Below, piece after piece: positions 158-29,672 of a stretch of 33,223 nucleotides of DNA. How positions within the stretch are numbered: the first letter of the stretch is position 1; each line of letters begins with the position of its first letter. The notes below the pieces were generated by a model. That model was not told where the DNA came from. It made no database searches and worked only from the letters and a program-made list of their open reading frames with translations. The stretch is from Bacteroidaceae bacterium. GTDB lineage: Bacteria; Bacteroidota; Bacteroidia; Bacteroidales; Bacteroidaceae. The position numbers and the translations under genes were made by a program. Where the stretch lies: positions 1-33,223 of the forward strand of contig JAFTEV010000076.1 in assembly GCA_017453465.1 (NCBI GenBank), read 5' to 3'.

Positions 158-250
158 AAATAAAAGTTAAAAGTTAAAATTTAAAAGTTAAAATGGCTTG
201 TAGCGAACACTCCGCATGGCATTTTAACTTTTAACTCTTCACTTTTAACT
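158..250. repeat. Intergenic hairpin with tandem-unit arms
   Basis: The left arm iterates agttaaa (about 158-196) and the right arm iterates its complement ttaactt (about 213-250). Between them is a short spacer flanked by ATGGC and GCAT. This is the first of about twelve such elements in the window. It lies between the end of the partial gene and the aroQ promoter, so it could act as a terminator or 3'-end stabiliser, but it has no clean T-run. Confidence 0.75.
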
Positions 251-261
251 AAAAAAAGTCG

Positions 262-269
262 TACCTTTG
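262..269 (+). promoter_or_regulatory. Bacteroidetes -7 box upstream of aroQ
   Basis: TACCTTTG matches the Bacteroidetes -7 consensus TAnnTTTG and lies 28 nt before the aroQ start. No TTTG -33 element is visible at the usual spacing, so this is a partial match. An AGGAGA stretch at about 285-290 serves as ribosome binding site. Confidence 0.55.
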
Positions 270-297
270 TCGCGATAAGAAATCAGGAGAAAGAGAA

Positions 298-720
298 ATG
301 AAGATACTCATTCTGAACGGCCCCAACCTGAACTTGCTCGGAAAGCGTGAACCAGGGATATATGGTAGCCGGGGCTTTGCTGACTACTATGACGAACTGG
401 TACGTAGCTACCCCGACACGGAACTGAGCTACTATCAGTCGAACATCGAGGGGGAACTCATCAACGAGCTTCACCAGAAGGGCTATACATGGGACGGAAT
501 CATCTTGAATGCAGGGGCTTATACCCACACCAGCATTGCCCTGAGGGATGCTATATCGGCCATTACAGCACCTGTGGTAGAGGTTCACATCAGCAATGTG
601 CACCAGCGTGAAGCCTTTCGACACCAGTCCATGATAAGTGCTGTATGCAAGGGTGTCATCTGTGGTTTTGGCCTCGACAGCTACCGCTTGGCACTCGAAG
701 CTCTCATTCATCAGAAATAG
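298..720 (+). CDS. aroQ: Type II 3-dehydroquinate dehydratase
   Basis: Converts 3-dehydroquinate to 3-dehydroshikimate in the cytoplasmic shikimate pathway. At 140 residues it has the usual length for the small dodecameric type II enzyme. The N-terminal motif LNGPNLNLLGKREPGIYG carries catalytic Arg17 and Tyr22. QSNIEGELI and NAGAYTHTSIALRDA follow, then VEVHISN and REAFRH, which carry the substrate-binding His and Arg. The ATG at 298 is preceded by AGGAGA and gives the canonical N-terminus MKILILNGPN. The methyltransferase gene follows after 23 bases, probably in one transcript. Confidence 0.96.
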   Translation: MKILILNGPNLNLLGKREPGIYGSRGFADYYDELVRSYPDTELSYYQSNIEGELINELHQKGYTWDGIILNAGAYTHTSIALRDAISAITAPVVEVHISNVHQREAFRHQSMISAVCKGVICGFGLDSYRLALEALIHQK

Positions 721-743
721 CACCTCATCCCCCCCCCGTCACC

Positions 744-1421
744 ATGCACAGCGATATACTCTTGTCCGACATAGCTCAGTTTCAAGACCATATAGATGAT
801 TACATCGGGGCACACATCGACCCCGAAGGTGACTACCTGCACCGTCTCTACAGGGCTACCCACCTGCACCTGCTCTATAGTCGCATGGCCAGCGGACACC
901 TGCAAGGGCGCATCCTGAAGATGCTTACCCAGATGATTCGCCCCCACACTGTGCTCGAAATAGGCACTTACAGTGGTTACAGCGCACTCTGCCTGGCTGA
1001 AGGTCTGCCCCCACAAGGACACCTCCACACGATAGAAATCAATGATGAGCAAGAGGACTTTACCCGTCCCTGGCTGGAGAACTCGCCTTACGCTCAGCAG
1101 ATTACCTTCCACATAGGCGATGCCTTGCAAGTCGTTCCTCGGCTGGGTCTCTGCTACGACCTCGTCTTTATTGATGCTGACAAGCGTTTCTATCAGGACT
1201 ACTACGAACTCTCGCTTGAGTACCTCAATCCAGGGGGTTACATCTTGGCCGACAACACGCTCTGGGATGGTCATGTGCTGGAACCTCACCCTACTGACCC
1301 TCAGACTCGGAGCATACAAGCCTTCAACGAAGCCTTGGCTCAGGACTCCCGTGTGGAGAAGGTCATCCTGCCCCTGCGCGACGGACTTACCATCATCCGA
1401 AAACGCTGCACCACCCGCTGA
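744..1421 (+). CDS. Class I SAM-dependent O-methyltransferase (COG4122-like)
   Basis: Predicted small-molecule O-methyltransferase of the catechol/caffeoyl-CoA type; the substrate cannot be read from sequence. The start at 744 gives 225 residues, normal for the family. The frame stays open further upstream but would overlap aroQ and adds unrelated sequence. SAM-binding motif I is VLEIGTYSGYSALCLAEG, followed by HTIEIND. The acidic metal/SAM region DLVFIDADKRFYQDYYE and the strand ILADNTLWDG are both present. There is no clear Shine-Dalgarno site; a run of nine C (729-737) lies just before the start. Co-transcription with aroQ is likely. Confidence 0.9.
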   Translation: MHSDILLSDIAQFQDHIDDYIGAHIDPEGDYLHRLYRATHLHLLYSRMASGHLQGRILKMLTQMIRPHTVLEIGTYSGYSALCLAEGLPPQGHLHTIEINDEQEDFTRPWLENSPYAQQITFHIGDALQVVPRLGLCYDLVFIDADKRFYQDYYELSLEYLNPGGYILADNTLWDGHVLEPHPTDPQTRSIQAFNEALAQDSRVEKVILPLRDGLTIIRKRCTTR

Positions 1422-1479
1422 AAATCGCTGTAGTGGTTTTCCTGCAATGATGCAGTGAGTTTTAAGTAACCTATGATAA

Positions 1480-1720
1480 TTTTTTAACACGAATGATAAT
1501 TTTTTTTAACACGAATGACACGAAATTACACGAAGTTATGCGGACTAAAAGAAATTACACAAAGCACCTCGGCGGTGACGAATGACACGAAAGCCTATGG
1601 GATGGTTTCGTGAAGTTTCGTAGCACTCCAAGTGCTCCTTCGTGCAATATGCATGGTTCGTGAAGCTTCGTGTAATTCGTGTTTCAAAAAAAAAGAATTT
1701 CGTGTTTTAAAATAACCTTC
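1480..1720. repeat. Intergenic hairpin with acacgaa-type tandem arms
   Basis: This gap of about 350 bases between the methyltransferase and rbfA is filled by iterated acgaa-type units on the left (acacgaatgacacgaaa) and the complementary ttcgtg-type units on the right (about 1605-1710). Inner palindromes include agcactccaagtgct at about 1622. Several A and T runs border the arms. I see no coding sequence here. Confidence 0.75.
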
Positions 1721-1770
1721 GTGCCAGCAAAAAAATAACACCAAATCATCATCAAAAAACAACTAAAGTA

Positions 1771-2109
1771 TTGGAAACGAACAGACAAAACAAGATAGCA
1801 CGCCTCATCCAGAAGGACCTGGCCACCATCTTTCAGCAACAGACACGCAAGACACACGGCATACTTGTGTCGGTCAGCGTGGTCAGAATCAGCCCCGACC
1901 TTAGTGTGGCCAAGGCTTACCTCAGCATCTACCCCTCGGAGAAGGCTCAAGAGATACTCGACAACATCAATGCCCATAACAGCCAGATACGCTACGAACT
2001 GGGCACACTGGAAAGGCATCAGCTACGCATCATACCCGAACTGAAGTTCTTCCTCGACGATTCACTTGACTACGTGGATCACATCGACCAGCTCCTCAAG
2101 GAAGGTTAA
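1771..2109 (+). CDS. rbfA: 30S ribosome-binding factor A
   Basis: RbfA binds the 30S subunit and assists late 16S rRNA maturation, notably during cold adaptation. The 112-residue product begins METNRQNKIARLIQKDLATIF, the typical Bacteroidetes RbfA N-terminus, and contains SVVRISPDLSVAKAYLSIYP (KH-like core) and the C-terminal IPELKFFLDDSLDY motif. The start codon is TTG at 1771; no ATG gives a better N-terminus. The permease gene starts 28 bases after the stop, so the two are probably co-transcribed. Confidence 0.93.
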   Translation: METNRQNKIARLIQKDLATIFQQQTRKTHGILVSVSVVRISPDLSVAKAYLSIYPSEKAQEILDNINAHNSQIRYELGTLERHQLRIIPELKFFLDDSLDYVDHIDQLLKEG

Positions 2110-2137
2110 ACACTTCACATACAGCACACACAGAAGC

Positions 2138-3367
2138 ATGAGTTTCCCGTTCTATATAGCACGCCGCTACCTCTTCTCCAAGAAGTCACACTCTGCCATC
2201 AACATCATCAGCGGAGTCAGCATCAGCGGCATAGCCATAGCTACCGCTGCCCTCATCTGCATACTGAGCGTATTCAACGGATTTGAGGACATGGTGGCAC
2301 AGCTCTTCACGGCCTTCGACCCTCCCCTGAAAATCTTGCCCACAGAAGGGAAGTACATGGCAGCTGATGAACCCGAACTGGAGGCTCTGCGCAAGAATCC
2401 CAACATAGCCGTCTATACCGAAGTGGTTGAGGATAACGCACTTCTGCTTATCAACAATCGTCAGGCTATGGCCACCATCAAGGGTGTGGACGACAACTTC
2501 ACCAGCCTTACTCGCATCGAGGACATCCTCTACGGTGACGGCACTTTCCAGCTACACGCTGACATCCTGGACTACGGCATAGCTGGCACAGGTCTCCTGC
2601 AACAGCTGTCCCTGCCTGTCAACTTTTCTGAACCCATACAGGTGTTTGCACCTCGCAGTGGAGAACGCATTGATATGACCGACCCTCGCGAAAGTTTCAC
2701 ACAGGAAGAACTCTTTTCGCCCAACGTAGGGTTCATGGTGAAACAGGGAAAATACGATAACCACTATGTCCTGACCAGCATCAGCTTTGCACGCCGTCTG
2801 TTTGAACGTCAAGGCTATGTGACAGCCGTAGAACTCAAGCTGAAGCCTGGCCTCACCACTTCGGCAGAAAAGCGCAACATAGCTCAGAAACTGGGTTCCC
2901 GCTATCAGGTGCTCGACCGATATGAACAGCAGGAAGGCACCTTCAAGATTATGAAGATAGAAAAGCTCATTTCCTACATCTTCCTCACGTTCATCCTGTT
3001 GATAGCCAGTTTCAACATCATTGGTTCCCTCTCCATGCTGATGATAGAGAAGAAGCAAGATGCCATCACCCTGCGCAGTCTGGGTGCCACACCACGCCAG
3101 ATAACAGCTATCTTTATGCTGGAAGGGCGTCTCATTTCGCTTCTGGGAGCCGTCATTGGCATTGCCGTAGGTCTCACACTCTGCCTCTTGCAACAACACT
3201 ACGGACTCATCCGTTTCGGTTCGCAGGAAGGCACCTACATCATTGATTCTTATCCCGTCAGCGTACACACCACTGACATCCTTCTGACTTTCCTGACGGT
3301 CATTCTGACAGGGTTCCTCTCGGTGTGGTACCCCGTCAAGTCGTTTACACAAAAAATGGAAAACTAA
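2138..3367 (+). CDS. LolC/LolE-type lipoprotein-release ABC permease (FtsX family)
   Basis: Probable inner-membrane permease of the system that extracts lipoproteins from the inner membrane for transport to the outer membrane. It has 409 residues. The N-terminal MacB/LolE signature FYIARRYLFSKKSHSAINIISGVSISGIAIATAALI contains TM1. A periplasmic domain of about 200 residues follows, then three C-terminal helices of the FtsX domain (FLTFILLIASFNIIGSLSMLM, a helix around LLGAVIGIAVGLTLCLL, and one around LLTFLTVILTGFL). ATG 2138 was chosen because the upstream extension overlaps rbfA and is not protein-like. The ATPase partner is not encoded nearby. LolC, LolE and MacB-like members cannot be separated reliably by eye. 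Confidence 0.88.
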   Translation: MSFPFYIARRYLFSKKSHSAINIISGVSISGIAIATAALICILSVFNGFEDMVAQLFTAFDPPLKILPTEGKYMAADEPELEALRKNPNIAVYTEVVEDNALLLINNRQAMATIKGVDDNFTSLTRIEDILYGDGTFQLHADILDYGIAGTGLLQQLSLPVNFSEPIQVFAPRSGERIDMTDPRESFTQEELFSPNVGFMVKQGKYDNHYVLTSISFARRLFERQGYVTAVELKLKPGLTTSAEKRNIAQKLGSRYQVLDRYEQQEGTFKIMKIEKLISYIFLTFILLIASFNIIGSLSMLMIEKKQDAITLRSLGATPRQITAIFMLEGRLISLLGAVIGIAVGLTLCLLQQHYGLIRFGSQEGTYIIDSYPVSVHTTDILLTFLTVILTGFLSVWYPVKSFTQKMEN

Positions 3368-3500
3368 TGAAAAATAAGGAGATAGAGGGAGTTAAAGGAG
3401 ATATGTCGCTTTCAGCGACGGAGATAAAGGACGTTACATAAGTTTAGTATCGTCTTATAACTCCTTCTATCTACTTTTAACTCCTTCTAACTCCCTAAAA
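3368..3500. repeat. Intergenic hairpin with gagttaaagga-type arms
   Basis: It begins directly after the permease stop codon. The left arm (ggagatagagggagttaaagg) is matched by a right arm of iterated ttaactcctt/ctatct units at about 3455-3498. The spacer holds a small palindrome, gtcgctttcagcgac. The element fills most of the gap to the next gene. Confidence 0.75.
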
Positions 3501-3517
3501 ATAAAAAAAACATAGTT

Positions 3518-5209
3518 ATGAACAAAACCACATCTCTGCTGCTTCCCGCAGCATCAGCCCTTATCCTTGCCAGTTGTGGCGGATTTGGCAAGATTACCAG
3601 TGAAGACTTCACAGTGACCCCAACACCCCTGGAATACGTGGCAGGTGAAGTGCCAGCCACCATCAGTGCTAACATTCCAGCTAAGTTTATGCCCAAGAAA
3701 GGCATCGTGACCTGCACACCCGTCCTTAAGTGGGAAAGTGGCCAGGCAAAGGGCAACAGCGTTACGTTCCAAGGCGAGAAAGTTGAGGCCAACAACACCG
3801 TTATTTCTTATAAACAGGGAGGTACAGCCACCATGCGTGTGACTTACCCCTATCAGCAACCTATGGCCAAAAGCGAACTCTACATGCAGTTTGAAGCCAA
3901 GAAAGGCAGCAAGGACGTGAAGATACCCGAAGTGAAGATAGGTTACGGCGTACAGGCCACAGCAGCCCTCATCAGCGAAGCAGCTCGCACCAGCGGACAG
4001 TCTGTAGCAGCAGACAAGTTTCAGCGCATCATCAGTCAGAAACAGGAAGCAGCCGTCAAGTTCCTCATAGGTCAGGCTAACCTGCGTGGAAGCGAACTGA
4101 ACAGCACCACGGTGAAGGACTTTATTGCCAAGATGAAGGAAATTAAGAACGACCAGAAAAGTCTTTCCCTCAAGAACGTAGAAGTAAGTGCCTACGCCTC
4201 TCCTGATGGCAAGTATGACTTCAACGAAAAGCTGGCAGAAAAGCGTGGTGACGTATCAGAAAAGTATGTAAACCAGCAGCTGAAGGCACAACAGCTTACC
4301 ACTAATGTTGACACCAAATACACCGCAGAAGACTGGGACGGCTTCAAGGAACTTGTCAGTCAGTCGAACCTTCAGGACAAAGATGTCATCCTGCGTGTGC
4401 TCTCCATGTATCAGGACCCCGAACAGCGTGAACAGGAAATCAAGAACGTAGCCACAGTCTATAAGGAACTGGCCGATGCTGTATTGCCAGAACTCCGCCG
4501 TTCACGCCTCACCATTAACTACGACGTAATTGGCCGCAGTGATGCAGAAATAGCAGAACAGTTCAACGCAGATGCTACCAAGCTGAGCCTCGAAGAACTC
4601 ATCTATGCTGGCAACAAGCTGGCCACTACAGATGCTGAAAAAGAAGCCTACTACAAGAAGGCTACCGACCTCTATCAGGGTGACTACCGTGCCTACAACA
4701 ACCTGGGTGTACTCGCTATGAAACAGGGCAATACAGCCAAGGCAGCAGACTACTTCAAGCAAGCTCTCAGCAAGAACAATGCTGCACCCGAACCTAATGC
4801 CAACATGAGCACCATTGCCCTTCAGAACGGTGACTTCAAGTCTGCTGAAACCTACGCAGCAAAAGGCACTACCGCTCCTGCCGCTGATGAGACCTTGGGC
4901 AACCTCTACATCGCACAAGGCAAGTATGACCAGGCTGCTGCAAAACTCGCTAACTCAAACACCAACAGTGCTGCTCTGGCACAGATTCTTTCCAAGAACT
5001 ACACTGCTGCCAACAAGACCCTCAGCAACATCAAGGCTCCTAACGCACTCACATTCTACCTGAAAGCTATCGTAGGTGCACGTCAGAACGAACAGGCCGT
5101 AGTGCTCACCAACCTGAAACAAGCCGTACAGAAAGATGCTGCCTACAAGATTAAGGCACAGAACGACTGCGAGTTCGTCAATTTCCCTGATGCCATCAAA
5201 GCACTCTAA
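3518..5209 (+). CDS. Lipoprotein with OmpA-like segment and C-terminal TPR repeats
   Basis: A 563-residue secreted protein. The signal peptide ends at lipobox LASC (Cys20), so it should be lipid-anchored. Residues about 25-150 look like beta-rich domains. VEVSAYASPDGKYDFNEKLAEKRGDV (around residue 220) resembles the OmpA/MotB peptidoglycan-binding core (a GYASP-type strand followed by N..L...R). Residues about 375-470 carry TPR-like helical repeats (YRAYNNLGVLAMKQGNTAKAADYFKQAL; TLGNLYIAQGKYDQAAAKL). A role in the cell envelope bound to peptidoglycan is inferred; no specific partner can be named. Confidence 0.82.
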   Translation: MNKTTSLLLPAASALILASCGGFGKITSEDFTVTPTPLEYVAGEVPATISANIPAKFMPKKGIVTCTPVLKWESGQAKGNSVTFQGEKVEANNTVISYKQGGTATMRVTYPYQQPMAKSELYMQFEAKKGSKDVKIPEVKIGYGVQATAALISEAARTSGQSVAADKFQRIISQKQEAAVKFLIGQANLRGSELNSTTVKDFIAKMKEIKNDQKSLSLKNVEVSAYASPDGKYDFNEKLAEKRGDVSEKYVNQQLKAQQLTTNVDTKYTAEDWDGFKELVSQSNLQDKDVILRVLSMYQDPEQREQEIKNVATVYKELADAVLPELRRSRLTINYDVIGRSDAEIAEQFNADATKLSLEELIYAGNKLATTDAEKEAYYKKATDLYQGDYRAYNNLGVLAMKQGNTAKAADYFKQALSKNNAAPEPNANMSTIALQNGDFKSAETYAAKGTTAPAADETLGNLYIAQGKYDQAAAKLANSNTNSAALAQILSKNYTAANKTLSNIKAPNALTFYLKAIVGARQNEQAVVLTNLKQAVQKDAAYKIKAQNDCEFVNFPDAIKAL

Positions 5210-5229
5210 ACATTGCATTCGCATTCTTA

Positions 5230-6252
5230 ATGAATATCCTCAAAAACACTTTTCTTTTACCACTGATGGCCATGCTCCTGTTCCTTACGGGGTGTGGCCC
5301 CAGTGGTAACAACTTCCAACTACAAGGCGAGTTCACAGGCATGAAAGCAGGTGAACTTTACCTCTTCAACCCCAACGACCCACAAGGTCGCATCGACACA
5401 CTCCACATCGTAAACTACCACTTCAGCTACGAAGGAACAACCGAAGACACCATCCCCCTTATTCTTCTGTTCCCCAACGCCGTAGAACACGTTATATTCG
5501 TCAGTCCAGCCACATCACTCCGATACACAGCTGCTGCCAATGACCTGAAAAACTACCACATCGAGGGTTCAGCAGAAAATGACTTGATGAACCAGTTCCG
5601 CACAGAAACCTCCTCGCTAAAGGAAAAACAAATACCCAACACAGCTCGTCAGTACATCAAGGACAACCCTACCTCACCCGTATCGCTCTATCTCTTTGAC
5701 CGTTACTTCCTGCAATCACAAAGCAGCACCCCATCACAGATTACCTCAATCCTGAAACTGCTGAAGCCACACCACCCCGACAACCGACTCCTTCTTTCTG
5801 CCGAAGGACTTCTGAAAAACGCAGACCTCCTGAAGAAAGGCAACACTGTGCCCAACGTCACACTTACCCCAGCATCCCGCAAAACGCAGAAACTCTGGGA
5901 CAAGTCCACCAAAGACTATACGCTCATCTTCTTCTGGTCCACATGGCTCTCCAACGGTTACGACATACTTTATAAAATACGTCAGCTACAGGAAACCAAC
6001 AAAGAAACAATGCGCACAGTAGGCTTTTCGCTTGATAATGAACGCTATCGCTGGGAAGACCTCACCCGACGCGATTCTCTCCTGATTGACCACTCCTGCG
6101 ATGGCCTCTCTTGGTCATCTCCCACCATACAGCAGATAGGGCTTCAGACCCTCCCCTTCTACCTCATTACAGACCGCACACACCGCATCCTCACCACTGG
6201 TACCAACATGGACCAACTCTCCAAGGATGTCACTAAATATGTAAAAAATTGA
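5230..6252 (+). CDS. DUF4369/thioredoxin-like lipoprotein without CxxC
   Basis: A 340-residue lipoprotein with lipobox LTGC (Cys22). The first half (residues about 28-120) resembles the DUF4369 beta domain found ahead of thioredoxin domains in Bacteroidetes. The C-terminal part (about 205-340) has a thioredoxin/ResA-like pattern: PNVTL, TLIFFWSTWLSNG, a long helix, then LPFYLITD with the cis-Pro. At the place of the usual WCxxC active site the sequence reads STWLSNG, so both redox cysteines are missing and disulfide exchange is unlikely. It starts 20 bases after the TPR lipoprotein and is probably in the same operon. Confidence 0.8.
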   Translation: MNILKNTFLLPLMAMLLFLTGCGPSGNNFQLQGEFTGMKAGELYLFNPNDPQGRIDTLHIVNYHFSYEGTTEDTIPLILLFPNAVEHVIFVSPATSLRYTAAANDLKNYHIEGSAENDLMNQFRTETSSLKEKQIPNTARQYIKDNPTSPVSLYLFDRYFLQSQSSTPSQITSILKLLKPHHPDNRLLLSAEGLLKNADLLKKGNTVPNVTLTPASRKTQKLWDKSTKDYTLIFFWSTWLSNGYDILYKIRQLQETNKETMRTVGFSLDNERYRWEDLTRRDSLLIDHSCDGLSWSSPTIQQIGLQTLPFYLITDRTHRILTTGTNMDQLSKDVTKYVKN

Positions 6253-6388
6253 AGATTGAAGATTGAAATGAGGAGTTAAGTAGTTAGGGGAGTTAAGTAG
6301 TTAAGCCAATACATAAGCTCCGTAACGGCTTAACTCCTGTCCGAAGGACGAGTGAAACGATAACTCCTTAACTCCTTAACTTCTAAAA
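6253..6388. repeat. Intergenic hairpin with gagttaagta-type arms (copy 1)
   Basis: It begins at the stop codon of the preceding gene. The left arm iterates ggagttaagtagtta and the right arm iterates taactccttaactcc. The stretch 6320-6380 recurs in inverted orientation at 20773-20833 with only four mismatches over 61 bases by my alignment, so it is a dispersed element. The spacer contains gtccgaaggac, itself palindromic. Confidence 0.85.
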
Positions 6389-7036: not shown

Positions 7037-7497
7037 TGGCAAAGTACGAAAGCAGCGTAAAGCAAATCAATCACCCCGTGGAAAGCGTCTATGCTAAAAT
7101 TTCTAATCTCAACAACCTTTCCATCATCAAAGAACGCATCAACGACCCCATCATTCGTGAGCAGATACCTGCTGATAAGCTGGAGCAAGTGTCTGACACC
7201 ATCAATAAGATGGAATTTACCGCAGATACAGTCAGCTGTGACGCAGGTATGATTGGAAACATTGCTGTCGAGATTGTTGAACGTGAAGAAAACAAATGCG
7301 TTAAGTATCAATCCACCAGTTCCCCAGTCAGCTTCACGTTCTGGGTGCAGGTACTCCCCACCAGCGACACCACCAGCAAGATGAAGCTCACCCTCGATGC
7401 CGACCTTAACTTCTTCATGAAGCAAATGTTCGACAAACCCCTACGTGAGGGCATAGAAAAAATGGCCGACATGATGGCCATGATTCCCTATAACTAA
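7036..7497 (+). CDS. SRPBCC-fold protein
   Basis: A 153-residue cytoplasmic protein with the polyketide cyclase/SRPBCC pattern: an N-terminal strand followed by HPVESVYAKISNLNNLSIIKERI, a series of beta strands (VEIVEREENKCVKYQSTSSPVSFTFWVQV), and a long C-terminal helix (PLREGIEKMADMMAMIPY). The start ATG 7036 overlaps the pyrE stop TAA by one base. The ligand and function are unknown. As far as I know a gene of this family often follows pyrE in Bacteroidales, which suggests a linked role, but that link is inference. Confidence 0.82.
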   Translation: MAKYESSVKQINHPVESVYAKISNLNNLSIIKERINDPIIREQIPADKLEQVSDTINKMEFTADTVSCDAGMIGNIAVEIVEREENKCVKYQSTSSPVSFTFWVQVLPTSDTTSKMKLTLDADLNFFMKQMFDKPLREGIEKMADMMAMIPYN

Positions 7498-7577
7498 TTA
7501 GGAATGAGGAATTAGGAATTGATACTCCAATTGTGAATTATCAATTGTCAAATTGTAAATTGTTCAATTGTCCAATT
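7498..7577. repeat. Intergenic repeat, aattgtgaatt family
   Basis: The whole gap between the SRPBCC gene and argH consists of iterated gaattagga, caattgtgaatt and caattgtc units. The segment gatactccaattgtgaatt (about 7520-7538) closely matches one arm of the element at 11222-11326. The repeat runs up to the argH start codon, leaving no room for a normal ribosome binding site. Confidence 0.75.
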
Positions 7578-10406: not shown

Positions 10407-11235
10407 CCTTTATCACCAACTCAAGCAGGTACTGACACAGAGCGGAATGGACGAGCGGGAAGCCTCGGCCATAACCCTGATGCTGATTGAAGAAAAGACA
10501 GGACTTAGCCGCACCCAGATTCTCACTTCCGCAGCCACCGCCCACTGTGCAGACCTACTTCCCCTTGCACAGCAGGTAGCCAGAGGTGTGCCCGTGCAGT
10601 ATGTCCTTGGTTATGCCTACTTCTGTGGCATGAAGTTCCGCGTCACTCCCAGTGTACTCATTCCGCGACCCGAAACCGAAGAACTGGTGGAGTGGGTAAT
10701 CTCCAGTGTAAAAAGATACGGAGCAGAACCCCGCATCCTTGACGTTGGTACAGGTTCAGGTTGCATAGCCATCACCCTTGCAAAGCGCATTCCTACAGCC
10801 CATGTCACAGCTCTCGACATCAGTGCAGAAGCCCTGCAGGTAGCTCGCAGGAATGCCGAAGCCCTCCATGCCGAGGTACGTTTTCAGCAGCTCGACATAC
10901 TCCACCAGCAACCGCAAGGCACCTACGACCTCATTGTTTCCAATCCCCCCTATGTCTGCGAAAGCGAGAAAGCAACCATGGAGCGGAATGTGCTTGACCA
11001 CGAACCCCACCTTGCCCTCTTCGTCCCCGATGCCTCCCCCCTCCTTTTCTACGAAGCCATAGCCCGTCAAGCCCTCACCCCCCTCACCCCTAATGGCCAG
11101 CTCTACTTTGAAATCAATCGTCAATACGGCACAGCCCTCACCACCCTGCTCCACAGCCTTGGCTACACCGACATCCAGCTCCGCAGGGACCACTTTGGCA
11201 ATGACCGAATGATACAATGCACAATTAACAATTAA
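10393..11235 (+). CDS. prmC: Release factor glutamine N5-methyltransferase
   Basis: Methylates the glutamine of the GGQ motif in peptide chain release factors. It has 280 residues. The N-terminal helical domain with GVPVQYVLGYAYFCGMKFRVTPSVLIPRPETEELVEW is typical of PrmC/HemK. SAM motif I is ILDVGTGSGCIAITLAKR, and the catalytic NPPY motif is present (DLIVSNPPYVCESE). The C-terminal residues TINN and the stop codon are encoded by the first units of the following repeat (acaattaac), so the gene end appears to have been replaced by repeat DNA. Confidence 0.94.
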   Translation: MCTISLYHQLKQVLTQSGMDEREASAITLMLIEEKTGLSRTQILTSAATAHCADLLPLAQQVARGVPVQYVLGYAYFCGMKFRVTPSVLIPRPETEELVEWVISSVKRYGAEPRILDVGTGSGCIAITLAKRIPTAHVTALDISAEALQVARRNAEALHAEVRFQQLDILHQQPQGTYDLIVSNPPYVCESEKATMERNVLDHEPHLALFVPDASPLLFYEAIARQALTPLTPNGQLYFEINRQYGTALTTLLHSLGYTDIQLRRDHFGNDRMIQCTINN

Positions 11236-11326
11236 CAATTCACAATTTGAGTATGAAACTTCGGACAGCAGTAACGCCAGCTATACATACTCCAATTGTG
11301 AATTGTGAATTATGAATTAAAAATTC
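11222..11326. repeat. Intergenic hairpin, aattcacaattt family (complete copy)
   Basis: The left arm is caattaacaattaac followed by aattcacaatttgagtatg; the right arm is catactccaattgtgaatt followed by gtgaattatgaatt. The spacer of about 35 bases holds cttcggacagcagtaacg. It overlaps the last codons and stop of prmC. Half copies of this element are present at 7498-7577 (right arm) and 19002-19058 (left arm). Confidence 0.82.
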
Positions 11327-12135: not shown

Positions 12136-12424
12136 GACCTCGAAGAGGTCGCACTTCACTGAATAACCCATGGTAAGACTGCGTCAAGCAGACTCACCAT
12201 GGGTGTTGCATAGATAGGGGTATATATACGTGGCACTTCGGTAGATGTGCCACACCATCGCAGATGGTACATACGGCATGGTGCATAACTACCTCCCGCA
12301 GAGGGGAGGTGTGGCACATCTACCGAAGTGCCAAAGCTTGTACTTGTCTGCCCTATCACCCATGGTGAGCCTGCTTGACGCAGTCTTACCATGGGTTAAT
12401 CAGAGTGTGACCTCTTCGAGGTCG
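12136..12424. repeat. Nested 290-bp palindromic element
   Basis: A large imperfect inverted repeat whose arms are themselves chains of small palindromes. In order: acctcgaagaggtc (12137-12150); acccatggt...accatgggt with an inner gcgtcaagc segment; gtggcac...gtgccac (about 12230-12253); accatcgcagatggt; acctcccgcagaggggaggt near the centre; then the same units in mirror order back to acctcttcgaggtc (about 12410-12423). Arm matches include taagactgcgtcaagcag against its complement with very few mismatches. There is no plausible coding sequence. It fills the gap between the radical SAM gene and the terminator. Confidence 0.85.
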
Positions 12425-16033: not shown

Positions 16034-16371
16034 ATCTCTTGTATGATTTCTCGTCGGCCCTGCTGCAAGCTCGGCAGCGCAAGGGTGTAACGCAAGAGCA
16101 GATTGCTTTTACGTTGGACATTTCGCAGGCTACCTACAATGCTTGGGAATGTGGGCATCGCATTTGTCCCTACAAGCACATTATTGCGCTTATCAGTTAT
16201 TTTGACGATGAGCAGTTTACACGGCGGATGCTCAGAATCTTGCTGACATTGCAGCATAATATGGCTGGATTGAACCGAAAGTCTGCCACGGAACTTACTT
16301 CTTTCTACACGAAACTTGTCAAGTTGCTCGACGATGTAGTTTCGGATTGGCTTAATACGATTCACAATTAA
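16030..16371 (+). CDS. XRE-family helix-turn-helix protein
   Basis: A 113-residue protein with an N-terminal XRE-like HTH: LLQARQRKGVTQEQIAFTLDISQATYNAWECGHRICPYKHIIALISYF (about residues 10-58). The C-terminal half is helical with no recognised domain. It is translationally coupled to the PH-like membrane protein. The pair could be a membrane sensor with its regulator, or an antitoxin-like repressor with a membrane partner. Its last codons (TIHN) and stop run into the following repeat (attcacaattaacg). Confidence 0.75.
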   Translation: MNLLYDFSSALLQARQRKGVTQEQIAFTLDISQATYNAWECGHRICPYKHIIALISYFDDEQFTRRMLRILLTLQHNMAGLNRKSATELTSFYTKLVKLLDDVVSDWLNTIHN

Positions 16372-16463
16372 CGAAATCCGAATTACGAAATACGAAAGAC
16401 CATCCGGATGGTTTGACTTCGTCGAGCTAAAGGTTCGTAATTCGTAATTCGTATTTCGTATTT
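16372..16463. repeat. Intergenic hairpin with cgaaatac/gaattac arms
   Basis: The left arm is gaattacgaaatacgaaag and the right arm is ttcgtaattcgtaattcg plus tatttcgtatttc. The spacer includes the palindrome catccggatg. It abuts the stop codon of the XRE gene. Confidence 0.8.
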
Positions 16464-16483
16464 CCTCATTGTCCTCTGGACTT

Positions 16484-16604
16484 TTTGCCTTTTTGCTGTG
16501 CTCAAACCATTGCTTTTTGTTAATAAAAGTGGTTTTTCTCTATAAATTTCATTAAAAAGCATGGTTTTAGGGCAATGAAGCCGAAAAATGTTCGTACTTT
16601 TGCC
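16484..16604. repeat. 121-bp perfect direct repeat, copy 1
   Basis: It is identical base for base to 17348-17468, an offset of 864 bases. It starts at tttgcctttttgctgtgctc and ends at ttcgtacttttgcc. The two copies flank the HigBA-like pair. Copy 1 ends in the -7 box TACTTTTG (16595-16602). Confidence 0.95.
16595..16602 (+). promoter_or_regulatory. -7 box for the toxin-antitoxin pair
   Basis: TACTTTTG matches TAnnTTTG and lies 40 bases before the toxin start at 16642. It is part of the 121-bp direct repeat, so the same promoter is duplicated at 17459-17466. No TTTG -33 box is seen at the standard spacing. Confidence 0.5.
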
Positions 16605-17347: not shown

Positions 17348-17468
17348 TTTGCCTTTTTGCTGTGCTCAAACCATTGCTTTTTGTTAATAAAAGTGGTTTT
17401 TCTCTATAAATTTCATTAAAAAGCATGGTTTTAGGGCAATGAAGCCGAAAAATGTTCGTACTTTTGCC
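17348..17468. repeat. 121-bp perfect direct repeat, copy 2
   Basis: An exact copy of 16484-16604. It ends in the -7 box TACTTTTG (17459-17466), which may serve the downstream lipoprotein gene at 17614 with a leader of about 145 bases. Confidence 0.95.
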
Positions 17469-17479: not shown

Positions 17480-17600
17480 TGCGGTATGTACGGTTGTACG
17501 GTTATGCGGTTGGACGGTTAGACGGTTGGACGGTTGTTCTACCGCAAACCATAAAACCACAAAACCGCAGAACCGCAAACCTGCAAAATCGCAGGACCGA
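17480..17600. repeat. Intergenic hairpin with ggacggtt/aaccgcaa arms
   Basis: The left arm iterates tacggtt, gcggtt and gacggtt (17480-17540). The right arm iterates accgcaaa and aaaaccgc (17540-17600). Single-arm pieces of the same accgcaaaa sequence occur at 19063-19100, and related sequence is inside the DEAD-box helicase gene at 31395-31520. Confidence 0.75.
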
Positions 17601-19001: not shown

Positions 19002-19104
19002 TTACAATTTGACAATTGATAATTCACAATTCACAATTCACAATTCACAATTTGAGTATCAACCGCATAACCGTATAACCGCAAAACCGCAAAACCGCAA
19101 GAAT
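19002..19104. repeat. Intergenic repeat: aattcac array plus accgcaaaa array
   Basis: Four consecutive aattcaca-type units are followed by aatttgagtat, the same sequence as the left arm of the 11222-11326 element. Then tandem accgcataaccgtataacc and accgcaaaa units follow up to 19100. No inverted partner is obvious for either half, so these look like two half-elements joined together. Confidence 0.75.
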
Positions 19105-19816: not shown

Positions 19817-19849
19817 TTTGACAATTGATAATGGGAAGGATAAGTCAAA

Positions 19850-19965
19850 AGTGAATAGTGAAAAGTGAATAGTGAAAAATCTAAGTTACTGAGGCTAAAC
19901 GCAGCCTAATGGTGGCTAAACTGAAATTCAGATTTTTCACTTTTCACTCTTCACTTTTCACTCCC
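19850..19965. repeat. Intergenic hairpin with gtgaata arms (copy 1)
   Basis: The left arm is aaaagtgaatagtgaaaa and the right arm is ttttcacttttcactctt. The core 19875-19937 matches 29579-29641 in direct orientation at 56 of 63 positions by my alignment, including gctaaacgcagcctaatg. It fills the gap before uppS. Confidence 0.87.
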
Positions 19966-19986: not shown

Positions 19987-20742
19987 ATGTATAAGGAACA
20001 GATAGATATGAACAGGGTGCCCAAGCATGTGGCATTCATTATGGACGGAAATGGACGCTGGGCTCAGGCTCGTGGCCATGAGCGCAGTTTTGGCCATTCG
20101 GCTGGTGCTGACAGGATGCACGACATCATGACGTGCGGGGCACGGCTGGGTATCAAGTATATGACGTATTATGCGTTCTCCACGGAGAACTGGAACAGGC
20201 CAGAGGCTGAGGTGAATTATTTGCTCGACTTGATGCTGAAGCATCTGGAAGAGGAAATCTTTGTGAAGAACAACATCCGCTTCACCATCATTGGCGACAT
20301 TTCGCGTCTGCCCCAGCATCAGCAGGATGCTTGCAGGCAGCTGATGGAGCGCACAAAGAATAATGATGCTTCGTGCATGGTGGTGGCTTTCAGCTATTCT
20401 ACTCGTTGGGAAATGCAACGGGCTGTGCGGCTGATGGCCGAGAAGGTGCAGCGTGGAGAGTTGAAGCCAGAGGACATCACGGCGGAGACGATTGACGAGC
20501 ATCTGATGACGAACTTCATGCCTGAGCCAGAGTTGCTTGTCCGCACGGGTGGCGAAGAACGCTTGAGCAATTTCCTGTTGTGGCAGGCTGCCTATTCTGA
20601 GCTTTATTTCACTGACACGTATTGGCCAGACTTCGACGAGGAGTGTCTGTATAAGGCTATCGTGGATTACCAGCACCGTCAGCGCCGTTTCGGTAAGACG
20701 GGCGAACAGGTGGTAGAAGAGGCGAAGAATTTGACGATTTGA
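19987..20742 (+). CDS. uppS: Isoprenyl transferase (undecaprenyl diphosphate synthase)
   Basis: Condenses isopentenyl diphosphate onto farnesyl diphosphate to form the C55 carrier lipid for peptidoglycan and surface polysaccharides. It has 251 residues. [10 protein letters not shown] (Asp20 binds Mg-diphosphate), [23 protein letters not shown] and the C-terminal [23 protein letters not shown] are all canonical. The start at 19987 gives [17 protein letters not shown] 20008 (Met8) is an alternative, with AGGA upstream of it. Next to bamA, as usual in Bacteroidetes. Confidence 0.95.
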
Positions 20743-20882
20743 CAATTTACAATTGGACAATTGATATGGGTAGTTAAGGAGTTAAGTAGTTATCGCTTCG
20801 CTCGTCCTTCGGACAGGAGTTAAGCCGTTACTGACATTCCGTATTGGTTAACTACTTAACTCCTTTAACTTCTTAACTCCTA
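20743..20882. repeat. Intergenic hairpin with gagttaagta-type arms (copy 2, inverted)
   Basis: It begins with acaattt/acaattgg units at the uppS stop, then a hairpin with left arm tagttaaggagttaagtag and right arm ttaactacttaactcc. The block 20773-20833 is the reverse complement of 6320-6380 with four mismatches in 61 bases. It shares the palindrome gtccttcggac. Confidence 0.85.
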
Positions 20883-24184: not shown

Positions 24185-24227
24185 CAGAAACAATAATCAC
24201 CAATAAACAAAGTATTAATAGAAAGAC

Positions 24228-24725: not shown

Positions 24726-24754
24726 TCCCCCAATACTTCACCCTGAAAAAATTG

Positions 24755-25318: not shown

Positions 25319-26151
25319 GTGAAAACCCCAATCTTTCTGGTCCGATAGGTGTGTTCGACTCTGGCTTTGGTGGACTGACCATCCTTGACGGCATACGTCG
25401 CAAGATGCCGCAATACGATTACATCTATTTAGGCGATAATGCGCGTGCCCCCTACGGCACACGCTCTTTTGATATTGTCTATGAGTTCACTCTGCAAGCT
25501 GTTCAGAAACTTTTCTCTCTGGGCTGTCCGCTGGTCATTCTGGGCTGCAACACGGCTTCGGCCAAGGCTCTGCGCAGCATTCAGCAGAAATACCTGCCTG
25601 TGGCTGCTCCGACAAGACGTGTGCTGGGCGTAATTCGTCCCACGGCAGAAGTGGTTGGCACACTTTCTCGAACACGCCACATCGGTGTGTTGGCCACGGA
25701 GGGCACCATCAAGTCGGAGAGTTATAAGCTGGAAATCCAGAAGCTCTATCCTGGCACCACGGTGGTGGGTCAAGCCTGTCCCATGTGGGTTCCGCTGGTG
25801 GAGAACAACGAATTTGCCAGTGCGGGTGCAGACTACTTTGTGCGCGACAGCATCGAAAAGCTTCTGGCACAAGACTCCCTCATCGACACCATCATCTTGG
25901 GTTGTACCCACTATCCGCTCTTGCTTCCGAAGATAGAGAAATACTGTCCGCCACACATCAAGCTGGTTCCCCAGGGCCGCTACATTGCCGAGAGCCTCGA
26001 AGACTACCTGCATCGCCACACCGAGATGGACCAGCGCATTACCCGTGGCGCAACGTGCCAATACTACACCACAGAAAGCCGCACCAAGTTCAGAGAGTCT
26101 GCCGCCATCTTCCTGCACGAAGATGTGGAAGTGGAACGCATCACCCTCTGA
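25315..26151 (+). CDS. murI: Glutamate racemase
   Basis: Interconverts L- and D-glutamate to supply D-glutamate for peptidoglycan. It has 278 residues. GVFDSGFGGLT gives Asp15/Ser16; LGDNARAPYG and the first catalytic cysteine, Cys78 (LGCNTASAKAL), follow; the second is Cys197 with His199 (ILGCTHYPLL). The start is GTG at 25315, overlapping the stop of the upstream gene; it gives MSENPNLSGPIGVFDSG. Position after the OmpH genes is a conserved Bacteroidales arrangement. Confidence 0.95.
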   Translation: MSENPNLSGPIGVFDSGFGGLTILDGIRRKMPQYDYIYLGDNARAPYGTRSFDIVYEFTLQAVQKLFSLGCPLVILGCNTASAKALRSIQQKYLPVAAPTRRVLGVIRPTAEVVGTLSRTRHIGVLATEGTIKSESYKLEIQKLYPGTTVVGQACPMWVPLVENNEFASAGADYFVRDSIEKLLAQDSLIDTIILGCTHYPLLLPKIEKYCPPHIKLVPQGRYIAESLEDYLHRHTEMDQRITRGATCQYYTTESRTKFRESAAIFLHEDVEVERITL

Positions 26152-26182
26152 GGCAAACGATAACCGTAAAAACCGCAATCCA

Positions 26183-26728
26183 ATGGGCATCTATTCAGAC
26201 CTTTTCCTTACATTCAGCAAGATTGGCAGCTTCACACTGGGCGGAGGCTACGCCATGGTGCCCGTGATGGAAAAGGAAATTGTCGATAAGAAAGGCTGGC
26301 TCACCCACGAAGAGTTTCTCGACATCCTCGTTGTGGCTCAGTCCACTCCTGGCCTCTTTGCCATCGACATGGCCTCCCACATCGGCTACAAATACCGAGG
26401 CACACTGGGCGGCATCGTCGGCGCATTGGGTGTGGCTGGCCCCAGCATCGTTGTCATCCTGCTCATCGCCATGTTTTTCCATGCCTTCAAGGGTAACATC
26501 TACGTCGAGAAAATCTTTATGGGCGTGCGCCCCTGCGTCGTGGCTCTCATCCTGGCACCCTGCTTCAAGATGGCCAAGTCAGCCAAGCTCAATCGTCACA
26601 ACTGGTGGATTCCAGTGGTGTCCACCTTGCTCATCTGTGCCTTTGGAGTCAGCCCCATTTGGTGCATCCTTGCTGCTGGCATAGGCGGCTACATCTATGG
26701 TCGGCTGACCAGAACCACAGAACATTGA
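26183..26728 (+). CDS. Chromate transporter family protein, first half-size subunit
   Basis: A 181-residue membrane protein of the CHR family. The CHR signature is visible: FLTFSKIGSFTLGGGYAMVPVMEKEIVDKKGWLTHEEFLDILVVAQSTPGLFAIDMASHIGYK. About five hydrophobic segments follow. ATG 26183 starts the conserved N-terminus MGIYSDLFLTF; the longer frame starts inside murI and is not protein-like. The gene pairs with the next one as a split two-subunit transporter. Whether the physiological substrate is chromate or another anion is not known. Confidence 0.88.
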   Translation: MGIYSDLFLTFSKIGSFTLGGGYAMVPVMEKEIVDKKGWLTHEEFLDILVVAQSTPGLFAIDMASHIGYKYRGTLGGIVGALGVAGPSIVVILLIAMFFHAFKGNIYVEKIFMGVRPCVVALILAPCFKMAKSAKLNRHNWWIPVVSTLLICAFGVSPIWCILAAGIGGYIYGRLTRTTEH

Positions 26729-26735
26729 CACTGCT

Positions 26736-27308
26736 ATGATATTCCTGCAACTCTTCATCACATTCTCAAAGATAGGCATCTTCAACTTCGGCGGGGGCTA
26801 TGCCATGCTCTCGCTCATACAGGACGAAGTGGTCAACAAGCACCACTGGCTCACGGTCTCCGAGTTTACCGACATCGTAGCTGTCAGCCAATCCACCCCA
26901 GGCCCCATTGGTATCAATGCCGCTACCTACACAGGCTACACCGCCGTCATCAATGCTGGCTACCCCCAGTGGGCAGCAGCCCTCTCAGCCGTTATGACCT
27001 CGTTGAGCATCATGTGGCTGCCTTTCATTCTGATGATTACCATCAGCAAATTCCTCTTGAAGCACAAAGACAGCCAGTGGATTAACGACATCTTCGCTAC
27101 TCTGCGCCCAGCCATTGTGGGGCTGATAGCTGCTGCCGCCATCATGCTGATGAATCGCGAGAACTTCGGCTCTCCGTCCGAATCCACCTTTGTCTTCATC
27201 GTCAGCCTCGTCATCTTCTTTTTCTCCTTCATCGGCACCCGTCTCTTCAAGATTCACCCCATCTTGATGATTCTGCTCTGTGGCCTGGCCGGACTACTCA
27301 TCTATTAA
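26736..27308 (+). CDS. Chromate transporter family protein, second half-size subunit
   Basis: A 190-residue CHR family protein, homologous to the preceding gene: FITFSKIGIFNFGGGYAMLSLIQDEVVNKHHWLTVSEFTDIVAVSQSTPGPIGINAATYTGYT. It has about six hydrophobic segments, the last ending IHPILMILLCGLAGLLIY. It starts seven bases after the first subunit, and its stop abuts the next start directly. The two short CHR proteins are expected to act as a heterodimer with inverted topology. Confidence 0.88.
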   Translation: MIFLQLFITFSKIGIFNFGGGYAMLSLIQDEVVNKHHWLTVSEFTDIVAVSQSTPGPIGINAATYTGYTAVINAGYPQWAAALSAVMTSLSIMWLPFILMITISKFLLKHKDSQWINDIFATLRPAIVGLIAAAAIMLMNRENFGSPSESTFVFIVSLVIFFFSFIGTRLFKIHPILMILLCGLAGLLIY

Positions 27309-28574
27309 ATGACAGAAACTGCAAACATATACACCCTGCCTTCAGGACTTCGTCTCATCCACGTGCCCTCCCATTCGCCCGTGGCCTACTGCGGCATCAG
27401 CATCGATGCTGGCACACGCGACGAACTCCCCACCGAGCAAGGCATGGCTCACTTCTGCGAACACATGATGTTCAAGGGCACTACCCACCGCCATGCCTGG
27501 CACATTATCAACCGCATGGAGCGTGTGGGCGGCGACCTCAATGCCTACACCAACAAGGAAGAAACGGTGGTCTATTCCGCCTTCATGAAGGAACACCTGC
27601 CACGTGCCGCCGAGCTTCTCTTCGATGTGGTGTTCCACTCCACCTTTCCCCAGACCGAAATCGACAAGGAACGTGAAGTCATTGTCGATGAAATAGAGTC
27701 CTACAACGACTCCCCCGCCGACCTCATCTTCGACCACTTCGAGAACATCATCTACCAAGGTCGCGACCTGGGTCACGACATTCTGGGCACAGCCGACGAC
27801 GTGCGTCGCTTCACCTCTGCCGATGCCCAAGCCTTCACCCGGCGGCTCTACAAGCCAGAACGAATGATTTTCTTTGTCATGGGGGATTATGACTTTGAAT
27901 ATGTGAAACGGATCCTCTCCTCCGGCTATTCCCCCGTAATGGGGAGGGGAGAAGAGGTTACCGACATAAAGGAGACAAGCCGCATGGTTTCCCCTCCCCA
28001 TTACGGGGGAGGGACCGGGGGAGAGGGTCCGCTCTTTATCGAAGACCGTGCCACCCACCAAGCCCACGTCATGATTGGTTGTGCTGCCTACGGAGCGAAG
28101 GACGACCGCCGCATTGCCCTCTACTTCCTCAACAACCTGCTGGGCGGGCCAGGCATGAACTCACGCCTCAACATCGCACTGCGTGAACAGCGCGGACTGG
28201 TCTATACCGTCGAGTCGTCGCTGACCAACTACACCGACACCTCCACCTGGGCCATCTACTTCGGTTGCGATGCAGAAGACGTGGAACGCTGCCGCCGACT
28301 GGTGCGGAAAGAGCTTGACCGCCTGATAAACCAGCCCCTCACCCAAGCGCAGTTTGCTGCCGCCATGAAGCAGATAAAGGGGCAGATAGGCGTGGCCTGT
28401 GACAACTCGGAAAACTACATCCTCGACACCGCCAAGGCATTCCTGCACTACAACAAGTTTGAGGGCATGAACGACACCTTCCGCCAGCTCGACAAACTCA
28501 CGCCACAGTTCCTGCAGCAGGTGGCCACCGAAGTCTTTGCGCCTGAAAACCTCACCACCCTCATCTTCCGATAA
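27309..28574 (+). CDS. M16 family zinc metallopeptidase with in-frame repeat insert
   Basis: A 421-residue pitrilysin/processing-peptidase-like protein. The inverted zinc motif HFCEH (His48, Glu51 catalytic, His52) is intact, with the third ligand near Glu128 (EVIVDEIESYNDSPAD). The C-terminal M16 half includes LFIEDRATHQAHVMIGCAAY, NNLLGGPGMNSRLNIALREQRGLVYTVESS and the final LTTLIFR. Residues about 202-240 (SGYSPVMGRGEEV ... SPPHYGGGTGGEGP) are encoded by a palindromic repeat inserted in frame between the two halves, probably on a surface loop. No signal peptide is seen, so it should be cytoplasmic. Confidence 0.92.
   Translation: MTETANIYTLPSGLRLIHVPSHSPVAYCGISIDAGTRDELPTEQGMAHFCEHMMFKGTTHRHAWHIINRMERVGGDLNAYTNKEETVVYSAFMKEHLPRAAELLFDVVFHSTFPQTEIDKEREVIVDEIESYNDSPADLIFDHFENIIYQGRDLGHDILGTADDVRRFTSADAQAFTRRLYKPERMIFFVMGDYDFEYVKRILSSGYSPVMGRGEEVTDIKETSRMVSPPHYGGGTGGEGPLFIEDRATHQAHVMIGCAAYGAKDDRRIALYFLNNLLGGPGMNSRLNIALREQRGLVYTVESSLTNYTDTSTWAIYFGCDAEDVERCRRLVRKELDRLINQPLTQAQFAAAMKQIKGQIGVACDNSENYILDTAKAFLHYNKFEGMNDTFRQLDKLTPQFLQQVATEVFAPENLTTLIFR
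27913..28030. repeat. Palindromic repeat inside the M16 peptidase gene
   Basis: The left arm (about 27913-27951, including cccccgtaatggggagggg) and the right arm (about 27991-28030, including cccctccccattacggggga) are inverted copies around a spacer of 39 bases. The peptidase frame stays open through it. The opposite strand also reads without stops across the element and gives closely similar peptides (SPVMGRG... and SPPHYGG...). Confidence 0.9.
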
Positions 28575-28642
28575 CTTCGCCCCGACAGCGTCCATACAGA
28601 ATAGAAACAAAAGATATAATTACAAGACCTACTTTGACCATT

Positions 28643-29578
28643 ATGAGAAAGATTATTGGCATCGGCGAGACCATTCTCGACATTATATTCAAGAACGAGC
28701 AGCCCACAGCGGCAGTGCCCGGAGGCTCCGTCTTCAACGGCATTGTCTCCCTTGGTCGTCTGGGCATGAATGTGTCGATGATTACCGAGACAGGCAACGA
28801 CCGCGTGGGCAGTATCATCAAGCGGTTCATGAAGGACAACGGCGTGGACGACAGCAGCGTCTGCATGTACGCAGATGGCCGAACAGCCATTTCCCTTGCC
28901 TACCTCAACGAGCGCAACGATGCCGAGTACACATTCTACAAAGACTACCCCAAGGCTCGCCTCGACGTGCAGTGGCCCGACATCCAGAAGGACGACATCG
29001 TGATGATGGGTTCCTACTTCGTCCTCAACCCCGTGCTGCGCCAGAAGGTGAAAGAGTTTCTCGACTACGCCCGCAGCCGCGAGGCACTCATCTACTACGA
29101 CATCAACTTCCGCTCCACCCACGCCTCCGAAGCCATCAAGCTCTACTCCTCCATCCTGGAGAATTTCGGCGTGGCCGACATCGTGCGCGGCTCCACCGAG
29201 GACTTCCACCACATGTTTGGCATAGACGATGCAGCCGTGGCCTACCAGCGCGAAGTCTCCTTCTACTGCAAGCAGATGCTCTGCACCGATGCTGAAGGAG
29301 CCATCCGCCTCTTCACCCCCACCTTCAGCAAGGACTACAAGGTGCAGCGCATAGAGACCGTCTCCACCATCGGCGCAGGCGACAACTTCAATGCCGGCGT
29401 GGTCTTTGGCCTCATGGCCGAAGGTGTCAGGCGCGACGACCTCCCCACCCTCTCGTCCGCCAAGTGGGACATCATCGTGAACCACGGCATAGCCCTCGCC
29501 ACCGAGGTGTGCCAAAGTTTCAACAACTCCATCAGCAAGGAGTTTGCCCTACAGTATAAAATTAAAAGTGAAGAGTGA
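28643..29578 (+). CDS. PfkB family carbohydrate kinase
   Basis: A 311-residue sugar or nucleoside kinase of the ribokinase superfamily. It has N-terminal IIGIGETILDIIFKNEQPTAAVPGGSVFNGIVSLGRLG (substrate side with GGS), mid ALIYYDINFRST (the usual D.N.R motif), and C-terminal STIGAGDNFNAGVVFGL (PfkB signature 2 with catalytic Asp). The substrate may be fructose or a related sugar but cannot be fixed by eye. ATG 28643 gives MRKIIGIGET; the TTG three codons earlier is less likely. The last residues KIKSEE and the stop codon fall inside the following repeat arm (aaaagtgaagagtga). Confidence 0.88.
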   Translation: MRKIIGIGETILDIIFKNEQPTAAVPGGSVFNGIVSLGRLGMNVSMITETGNDRVGSIIKRFMKDNGVDDSSVCMYADGRTAISLAYLNERNDAEYTFYKDYPKARLDVQWPDIQKDDIVMMGSYFVLNPVLRQKVKEFLDYARSREALIYYDINFRSTHASEAIKLYSSILENFGVADIVRGSTEDFHHMFGIDDAAVAYQREVSFYCKQMLCTDAEGAIRLFTPTFSKDYKVQRIETVSTIGAGDNFNAGVVFGLMAEGVRRDDLPTLSSAKWDIIVNHGIALATEVCQSFNNSISKEFALQYKIKSEE

Positions 29579-29672
29579 AAAAATCTAAGTTACCAGAGCT
29601 AAACGCAGCCTAATGCTGACTAAACAGAAATTCAGATTTTTCACTCTTCACTTTTCACTCTTCACTTCCCTT
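29562..29672. repeat. Intergenic hairpin with gtgaaga arms (copy 2)
   Basis: The left arm is aaaagtgaagagtgaaaa (overlapping the 3' end of the kinase gene) and the right arm is ttttcactcttcacttttcactcttcac. The core 29579-29641 is a direct copy of 19875-19937 with seven mismatches in 63. It fills the gap to the helicase gene. Confidence 0.87.

Follow-up and report, generated by a model that had tools for sequence, protein, structure and literature searches.

The stretch of DNA analysed here (hereafter the window) is an entire contig of 33,223 nucleotides (C66) from the genome of an uncultured gut bacterium of the Bacteroidaceae (G000), and most of its longer gene junctions contain hairpins whose arms are built of short tandem units. 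These hairpins are probably non-coding palindromic elements of roughly 60-220 bp, similar to miniature inverted-repeat transposable elements (MITEs) or bacterial interspersed mosaic elements (BIMEs), that spread as whole copies and belong to about ten families residing in the same genome; in relatives, two families lie between divergent promoters. The assembly (3.16 Mb, 108 contigs, 85% complete, 6% contamination), whose closest named relatives are uncultured Bacteroidales or Prevotellaceae, many of them rumen-derived, was sampled as 26 contig pieces, the window included, which amount to 723 kb or 23% of the genome. Gene calls from a home-made hexamer model were used for the gap and placement counts, relatives were represented by one genome per species, and 45 genomes of the genus were searched for the families.

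Overall, 147 inverted repeats over threshold were detected in the 723 kb, 51 of them tandem-armed, and 3 of these 51 lay mostly within called genes. When these pieces were shuffled once by a first-order Markov model, no inverted repeat emerged, in agreement with the initial annotation, which had held that the repeats are not random low complexity. A stricter score left 39 tandem-armed repeats, with a period of 7 in 23 and of 8 in 9. By sequence, the tandem-armed repeats group into about ten families with copies at dispersed loci. Core and unit are particular to each family, and its members share cores across 100 bases or more. Core searches in the sample returned 6 copies of family A, 14 of B, 6 of C, 10 of D, 14 of F, 6 of G and 3 of H, and 46 matches to family F were listed in G000, 26 of them spanning at least 80 bases. 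Family B was matched in 44 of the 45 genomes of the genus and a hairpin with AATTAGG units in 40. Tandem-armed repeats occurred at a density of about 7 per 100 kb in G000, compared to 5.0 in G004 and 0-2.6 in the other ten of eleven relatives, for which samples of 22-80 kb and slightly looser repeat settings were used. The elements resemble MITEs in form, being short, non-coding, mostly intergenic and dispersed in many copies. Their arms are inverted, but the number of outer units varies and many copies are half arrays. The loop motif CCATNCGG of several cores was only slightly enriched in the sample (126 found vs 88 expected; 21 intergenic) and was discounted.

Twelve places in the window had been listed initially, and tandem units were present at or adjoining each of them. 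We confirmed a complementary second arm at ten, while the two others (7498 and 19002) were half arrays, as had been described. The inverted arms of 8 of the ten full elements were among the 25 longest inverted pairs, and the second arms at 1480 and 17480 were read from the sequence. Several details needed adjustment: the units are indeed short, but measure 7-10 nt instead of the 5-9 nt given; a GC-rich mini-palindrome is found in the spacer of some cores only (CCATCCGGATGG at 16372, GTCCTTCGGAC at 6253 and 20743); and the unit differs between sites, but some sites belong to one family, B being shared by 19850 and 29562, F by 6253 and 20743 in opposite orientation, and a CAATTG type by 7498, 11222 and 19002. 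The placement at nearly every boundary was worded a little strongly: by our own gene calls, the window has 19 gaps that reach 60 nt, and a listed element occupies 12 of them. A search against Rfam at gathering score gave no match to a known RNA family in the window.

Evidence for mobility came from a sister species (L022; RUG14757, the same genome as G004), whose BamA is 90% identical and whose alignment spans positions 5928-31607. The junctions at 6253, 7498, 19002, 20743 and 29562 carry no element in this species. Sites 158, 1480 and 3368 were left out as beyond its reach, and 16372 and 17480 as not comparable. Contrary to the refuting case named in the initial annotation, the same sequences were not at the same loci throughout, and these five empty junctions, together with two that hold a different array, indicate that the elements are lineage-specific and probably mobile; the dispersed copies further back this part of the initial annotation. 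In G015, the next relative by BamA, no such element was found at either of the two uppS junctions. Of 29 relatives' loci, 16 were readable at these two junctions; none had a tandem-armed hairpin at uppS-bamA, and two (L141 and L146) had another repeat-like sequence 5' of uppS. Family A was absent from all 14 compared loci with an ortholog of the window gene at 298, one of which (L363) had another array. Among orthologs of the L214 gene (15 loci compared; the other 15 of 30 had no plus-strand match and were left out), family B occurred only in G020, and a different tandem-armed hairpin in G063 and G013.

Within G000, the copies look inherited whole. The left arm was compared to the reversed right arm, within a copy and between copies, for seven families, and in none of them were the arms of one copy closer than those of different copies (family B, 0.758 within vs 0.753 between, p 0.37; family F, 0.574 vs 0.587, p 0.83). 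The lowest p value was 0.107 (family C, gapped), one of the six rows of this family being a chance core match without an array; the test was weak for D (4 rows) and H (3 rows), and E and the 9-nt families were left out. In most families, arms from the same side of different copies resembled each other as much as opposite arms did, or more. Peculiarities of the right or left arm are common to copies, which suggests copying of the whole element. The self-templating proposed initially thus found no support within G000, but in relatives the two arms did change together between species, on average, at two orthologous promoters (see below).

In relatives, two families make up the spacer between divergent promoters. 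We take TAnnTTTG to be the Bacteroidales -7 promoter consensus. For family B, 60 copies chosen by similarity, some of them orthologs, were fetched, of which 51 were parsed and 9 were not; 41 of 100 array ends faced this box within 40 nt and 59 had no box. The box followed the recognised array after 8-9 nt at 29 of the 41 ends, and after 23-31 nt at the other 12 because the last units had escaped the pattern. By eye, 11 of these 12 (all except L245) have CACT 9 nt before the box, so that pattern and eye together place 40 of 41 box-facing ends 8-9 nt from TAnnTTTG, with spacer letters that vary between loci. The AATTAGG hairpin had CAAAnnTA to its left and TAnnTTTG to its right in all 20 copies, which form 11 flank clusters; these were the twenty from the top of the match list, purD orthologs and three other entries having been left out, and the query itself spanned box to box, so complete copies were favoured. 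In the 18 copies measured, the array begins 6-9 nt from the left box. On the right, a loose pattern, which overlooked units in several copies, put the distance at about 9-16 nt, except in L415 and L418, where it is clearly greater. Across 3.0 Mb, 44 of 647 called promoters have a period-7/8 array upstream within 130 nt, which ends 1-13 nt before the box in 24, 18-36 nt in 4, 37-67 nt in none and at least 68 nt in 16, the last group fitting the far arm. The period-7 signal was weak when averaged over all promoters. In G000 itself, none of 36 family B arrays had the 8-9 nt spacing, and only family A showed box spacing (10-11 nt in 4 of 18 arrays). The stretch GAAAAAAGTCGTACCTTTGC past the right arm is common to several family A copies (window 161-264, C11), and family A may therefore carry or adjoin a promoter.

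The distances between divergent -7 boxes (CAAAnnTA ... TAnnTTTG) were also found to be helically phased: 96 pairs, collected in G000 and samples of 11 relatives and de-duplicated, gave a Rayleigh R of 0.48 at 10.5 bp (p about 4e-10). Convergent (45) and same-direction (44) pairs gave R values of 0.06 and 0.16, and ten permuted motifs reached at most 1.29 vs 4.66 (R times root n). Phasing was weaker past 100 nt (R 0.28, n=46, p 0.027). It was present both in the 85 pairs that lack arrays (R 0.46) and in the 11 that have them (R 0.60). The hairpins therefore do not account for it, and we regard it as a separate lead.

The two promoters at which arms change together belong to an AAA-ATPase gene (L229; 15 of 30 loci compared) and to purD. 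At the AAA-ATPase promoter, arm scores were 17.1 within and 10.1 across species (same side, 10.2 and 11.0; shuffled, 7.9), a within-species match reached by 0 of 20,000 permutations. The boxes are 115-118 nt apart in 9 of the 15 loci, and 6 (G036, G018, G003, G012, G019 and G034) score 8 or less, like shuffled sequence, which speaks against a clean rule. For purD, identified by its GARS domains, 13 loci were used with two near-identical ones dropped; the L196 search had also matched another repeat family, and its purD part was retained. Scores were 22.6 within vs 10.9 across species (same side, 12.7 and 11.6), again with 0 of 20,000 permutations, and 3 of the 13 (G066, G006 and G015) scored 8 or less. 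The unit changes from species to species (AGTGAAA, AATTAGG, AATTCAT, ATTTACG, CAATTGA). Among ten further purD loci, family B occurs in G014 (with an N run inside), AATTAGG in G068 and family F in G020; G065 and G022 carry half arrays of ATGAAGA, the boxes of G063 are separated by only 22 nt, and G000, G008, G031 and G011 show no clear array. Exchange of dispersed families explains the purD pattern.

Regarding placement, a dispersed intergenic repeat was present in 134 of 359 gaps of at least 25 nt in the G000 sample and made up about 25% of gap length; 25 of 53 convergent, 24 of 53 divergent and 85 of 253 codirectional gaps were occupied. Codirectional blocks crowd at the upstream stop codon, 61 of 97 lying over it or at most 10 nt away, compared to a mean of 44 and a maximum of 52 under uniform placement in the same gap (1000 draws). 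The upstream stop is overlapped by 44 of the 97 blocks, and 36 overlap the next start or approach it to within 10 nt. Block edges in divergent gaps mostly keep away from the start, by at least 100 nt in 48 of 64. This placement is explained by survival in harmless places, without targeting. The initial interpretation as a whole was supported for mobility but not for self-templating within G000, and action on 3' ends was supported in part, by the crowding at stop codons, but not by the divergent gaps, which are filled as often as convergent ones.

In the mechanism we favour, some enzyme would copy the elements into gene junctions, insertions would survive where they spare gene function, in the stretch from a stop codon to the core promoter that follows, and the unit number would drift through slippage. 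An array stopping 8-9 nt before a -7 box could fill the -33 region on both sides, so that an element would be tolerated at a promoter and one family could be replaced by another. Several observations weigh against spread by whole copies. No defined element ends were found; the outer edges differ between copies in how many units they hold, and mosaics and half arrays are common. No mobilising enzyme or transposase was found, no systematic transposase search having been made, and no target-site duplication was seen by eye in copy flanks or against the sister species, the flanks being strongly diverged. At 11222 and 19850, the sister species carries an AGTAAAT-type array, with another unit, instead of an empty junction. 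Finally, six species at the AAA-ATPase promoter agree in length (116-118 nt) and in part of the core but differ in the arms, a pattern that whole-element copying alone does not explain.

An alternative explanation is that the hairpins arise in place, slippage making the arrays and template switching within the hairpin, known as quasipalindrome correction, keeping the arms complementary without any mobile element. The six-species pattern leaves room for such in-place turnover at the AAA-ATPase promoter, and at both orthologous promoters arms match within but not between species. As a general origin we nevertheless consider it unlikely, given that families with conserved cores are dispersed over unrelated loci and that G000 arms are no closer inside a copy than between copies. 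Another possibility, to which we give a fairly low probability, is that the hairpins are portable two-way promoter cassettes from -7 box to -7 box, which would spread and replace each other box to box in helical phase (~10.5 bp) through a dedicated exchange mechanism recognising divergent -7 boxes, the gene-end copies of G000 having come loose from promoters.

Selected 3'-end hairpins, that is, terminators or mRNA stabilisers arising at transcript ends, would fit the crowding at stop codons and the long hairpins that the sequences could form. This appears quite improbable, as divergent gaps are occupied as frequently as convergent ones, all 20 AATTAGG copies lie upstream of both promoters, and five orthologous 3' junctions of the sister species have no hairpin. 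The initial annotation had also pointed to a repetitive extragenic palindromic (REP)-associated (Y1) transposase or a reverse transcriptase. Movement of REPs or REP-derived hairpins (REPINs) by a REP-associated tyrosine transposase (RAYT) would suit short dispersed extragenic palindromes, and a Y1_Tnp match above cut-off was present in 14 of the 45 genomes searched. However, none was found in G000, where 85% completeness keeps absence from being proof, nor in G013, G014, G002 and G018, all of which carry the families; the RAYT link was rejected as a candidate, and we hold it very improbable. One RVT_1 match was present in G000, with no link to the elements found. This reverse transcriptase of unassigned type, on C104 (L001:1249-2424; 391 aa), adjoins a 181-aa open reading frame without NCBIfam or PADLOC match and scored far under the curated NCBIfam cut-offs of group II and defence reverse transcriptase models. 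Chance low complexity of AT-rich gaps is in keeping with the AT-rich units, but has a negligible probability in view of the empty shuffle and of cores common over 100 bases or more.

If mobile palindromes do supply the upstream half of promoters, they would be rewriting promoter spacers even in front of such ordinary genes as purD. Because a single genus offers numerous families, junctions with no element and differing families at the same promoter, both origin and effect become testable.

The window elements are listed in the table below. Relatives of the ACACGAA-type element with TTTTCAACACGAAT ends occur elsewhere in G000.

Tandem-armed elements of the window (positions in the 33,223-nt contig)
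Element	Position	Strand	Remarks
Family A hairpin	161..250		Unit AGTTAAA; right arm stops 11 nt 5' of TACCTTTG, upstream of gene at 298
ACACGAA-type element	1473..1690		9-10 nt units; second arm identified by eye, with approximate end
Family G hairpin	3375..3497		10-nt unit, GGAGATAAA type
Family F hairpin	6248..6381	-	GAGTTAAG unit; ATTGAAG half array at left edge; L022 junction empty
Half arrays AATTAGG and CAATTGT	7496..7577		No array at L022 junction
Family H hairpin	11221..11318		CAATTAA/CAATTCA units; AGTAAAT-type array at L022 junction
Family D hairpin	16371..16464		ACGAAAT/CCGAAAT units; core GACCATCCGGATGG
Family E element	17480..17593		8-nt units ACGGTTGT / AACCGCAA; second arm from Tandem Repeats Finder and reading
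Adjoining half arrays of two families	19004..19100		ACAATTC and AACCGCAA; L022 gap few nt, no array
Family B hairpin	19843..19962	+	AGTGAAN units; different half array in L022
Family F hairpin	20728..20881	+	Outer CAATTTGA array contains uppS stop codon; L022 and G015 empty
Family B hairpin	29566..29667	+	Upstream PfkB-family gene stops inside left arm; L022 empty

Of the seven window gaps of at least 60 nt without a listed element, three have other palindromic repeats in or beside them: a large inverted repeat of nested structure, centred on ACCCATGG and TGGCACTTCGGTAGATGTGCCA between two converging genes and without tandem arms (12159-12403), a palindrome with AAAGTTGACGCAACGGCGTTGTTT arms and near copies on C1, C10, C45, C89, C102 and C6 (15105-15199), and a palindromic 22-nt tandem repeat (TGGTAAACCATTACCACCATGA; 32147-32240). 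An inverted repeat of 42 nt, 86% complementary, lies within the M16 peptidase gene (27909-28031 in 27309-28574). About 120 bp are duplicated 5' of a HigB-like gene (16482-16602) and 5' of a DUF6242 gene (17348-17466), and single-copy in the sister species. Another dispersed family, of 61-bp near-perfect palindromes (TAAATCATTGTTTGATTCTTAAGAATC...), has several copies on C7, C11, C5 and C21 of G000. The N run at G014 purD (L425) falls within a hairpin, and contig ends are close to several of the element matches, so that the repeats may break assemblies.

Reports of heptamer arrays between bacterial genes go back a long time, and we know of no accepted origin for them. Cyanobacterial short tandemly repeated repetitive sequences are degenerate heptamers, and in the tRNA-Leu intron of Nostoc such heptamers make up the two arms of a hairpin; by this description, not by sequence, they resemble the present elements. 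For the Prevotellaceae elements, the spacing rule, the family exchange and the phasing, our searches of open-licence PMC papers returned no description. Inverted pairs of heptamer arrays as such are already known, in Xanthomonas and Geobacter. The GGGAATC arrays of Xanthomonas form 70 and 75 inverted pairs by or over stop codons (PMC4692102), and share with our elements the heptamers, the inverted pairs, the proximity to stop codons and the lack of a known mobile-element link. They differ in being G-rich, with a single unit per genome, and 83% are at the same place in the related species, whereas most sister junctions read here are empty or carry another unit. The paired octa- and heptanucleotide sites of Geobacter metallireducens (classes 1-3) were proposed as regulator binding sites, with insertion sequences at a fixed distance from class 1 (PMC2700814). 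They are alike in their 7-8 nt tandem units, opposite-strand pairs at variable distance and dozens of copies in several classes per genome, but no promoter spacing was found in the available portion of that report. TAACTGA repeats of Beggiatoaceae, Cyanobacteria and some Bacteroidetes are likewise heptamers in gaps beside starts or over stop codons, but form direct arrays, with one inverted repeat in the main genome (PMC4679880). BrickBuilt, a MITE of Porphyromonas gingivalis with 19 exclusively intergenic copies, consists of a single family whose leader and tail enclose a 23-nt repeat, unlike the 7-10 nt units in both arms described here, and fixed spacing to -7 boxes or family exchange was not found in the accessible part of its description (PMC4596501). 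Its transcription is two-way by assay, with promoter activity in both directions in E. coli reporters, while a promoter role of our elements is deduced from box positions; it belongs to the same order and, like them, is intergenic and combines inverted ends with tandem repeats (PMC4596501).

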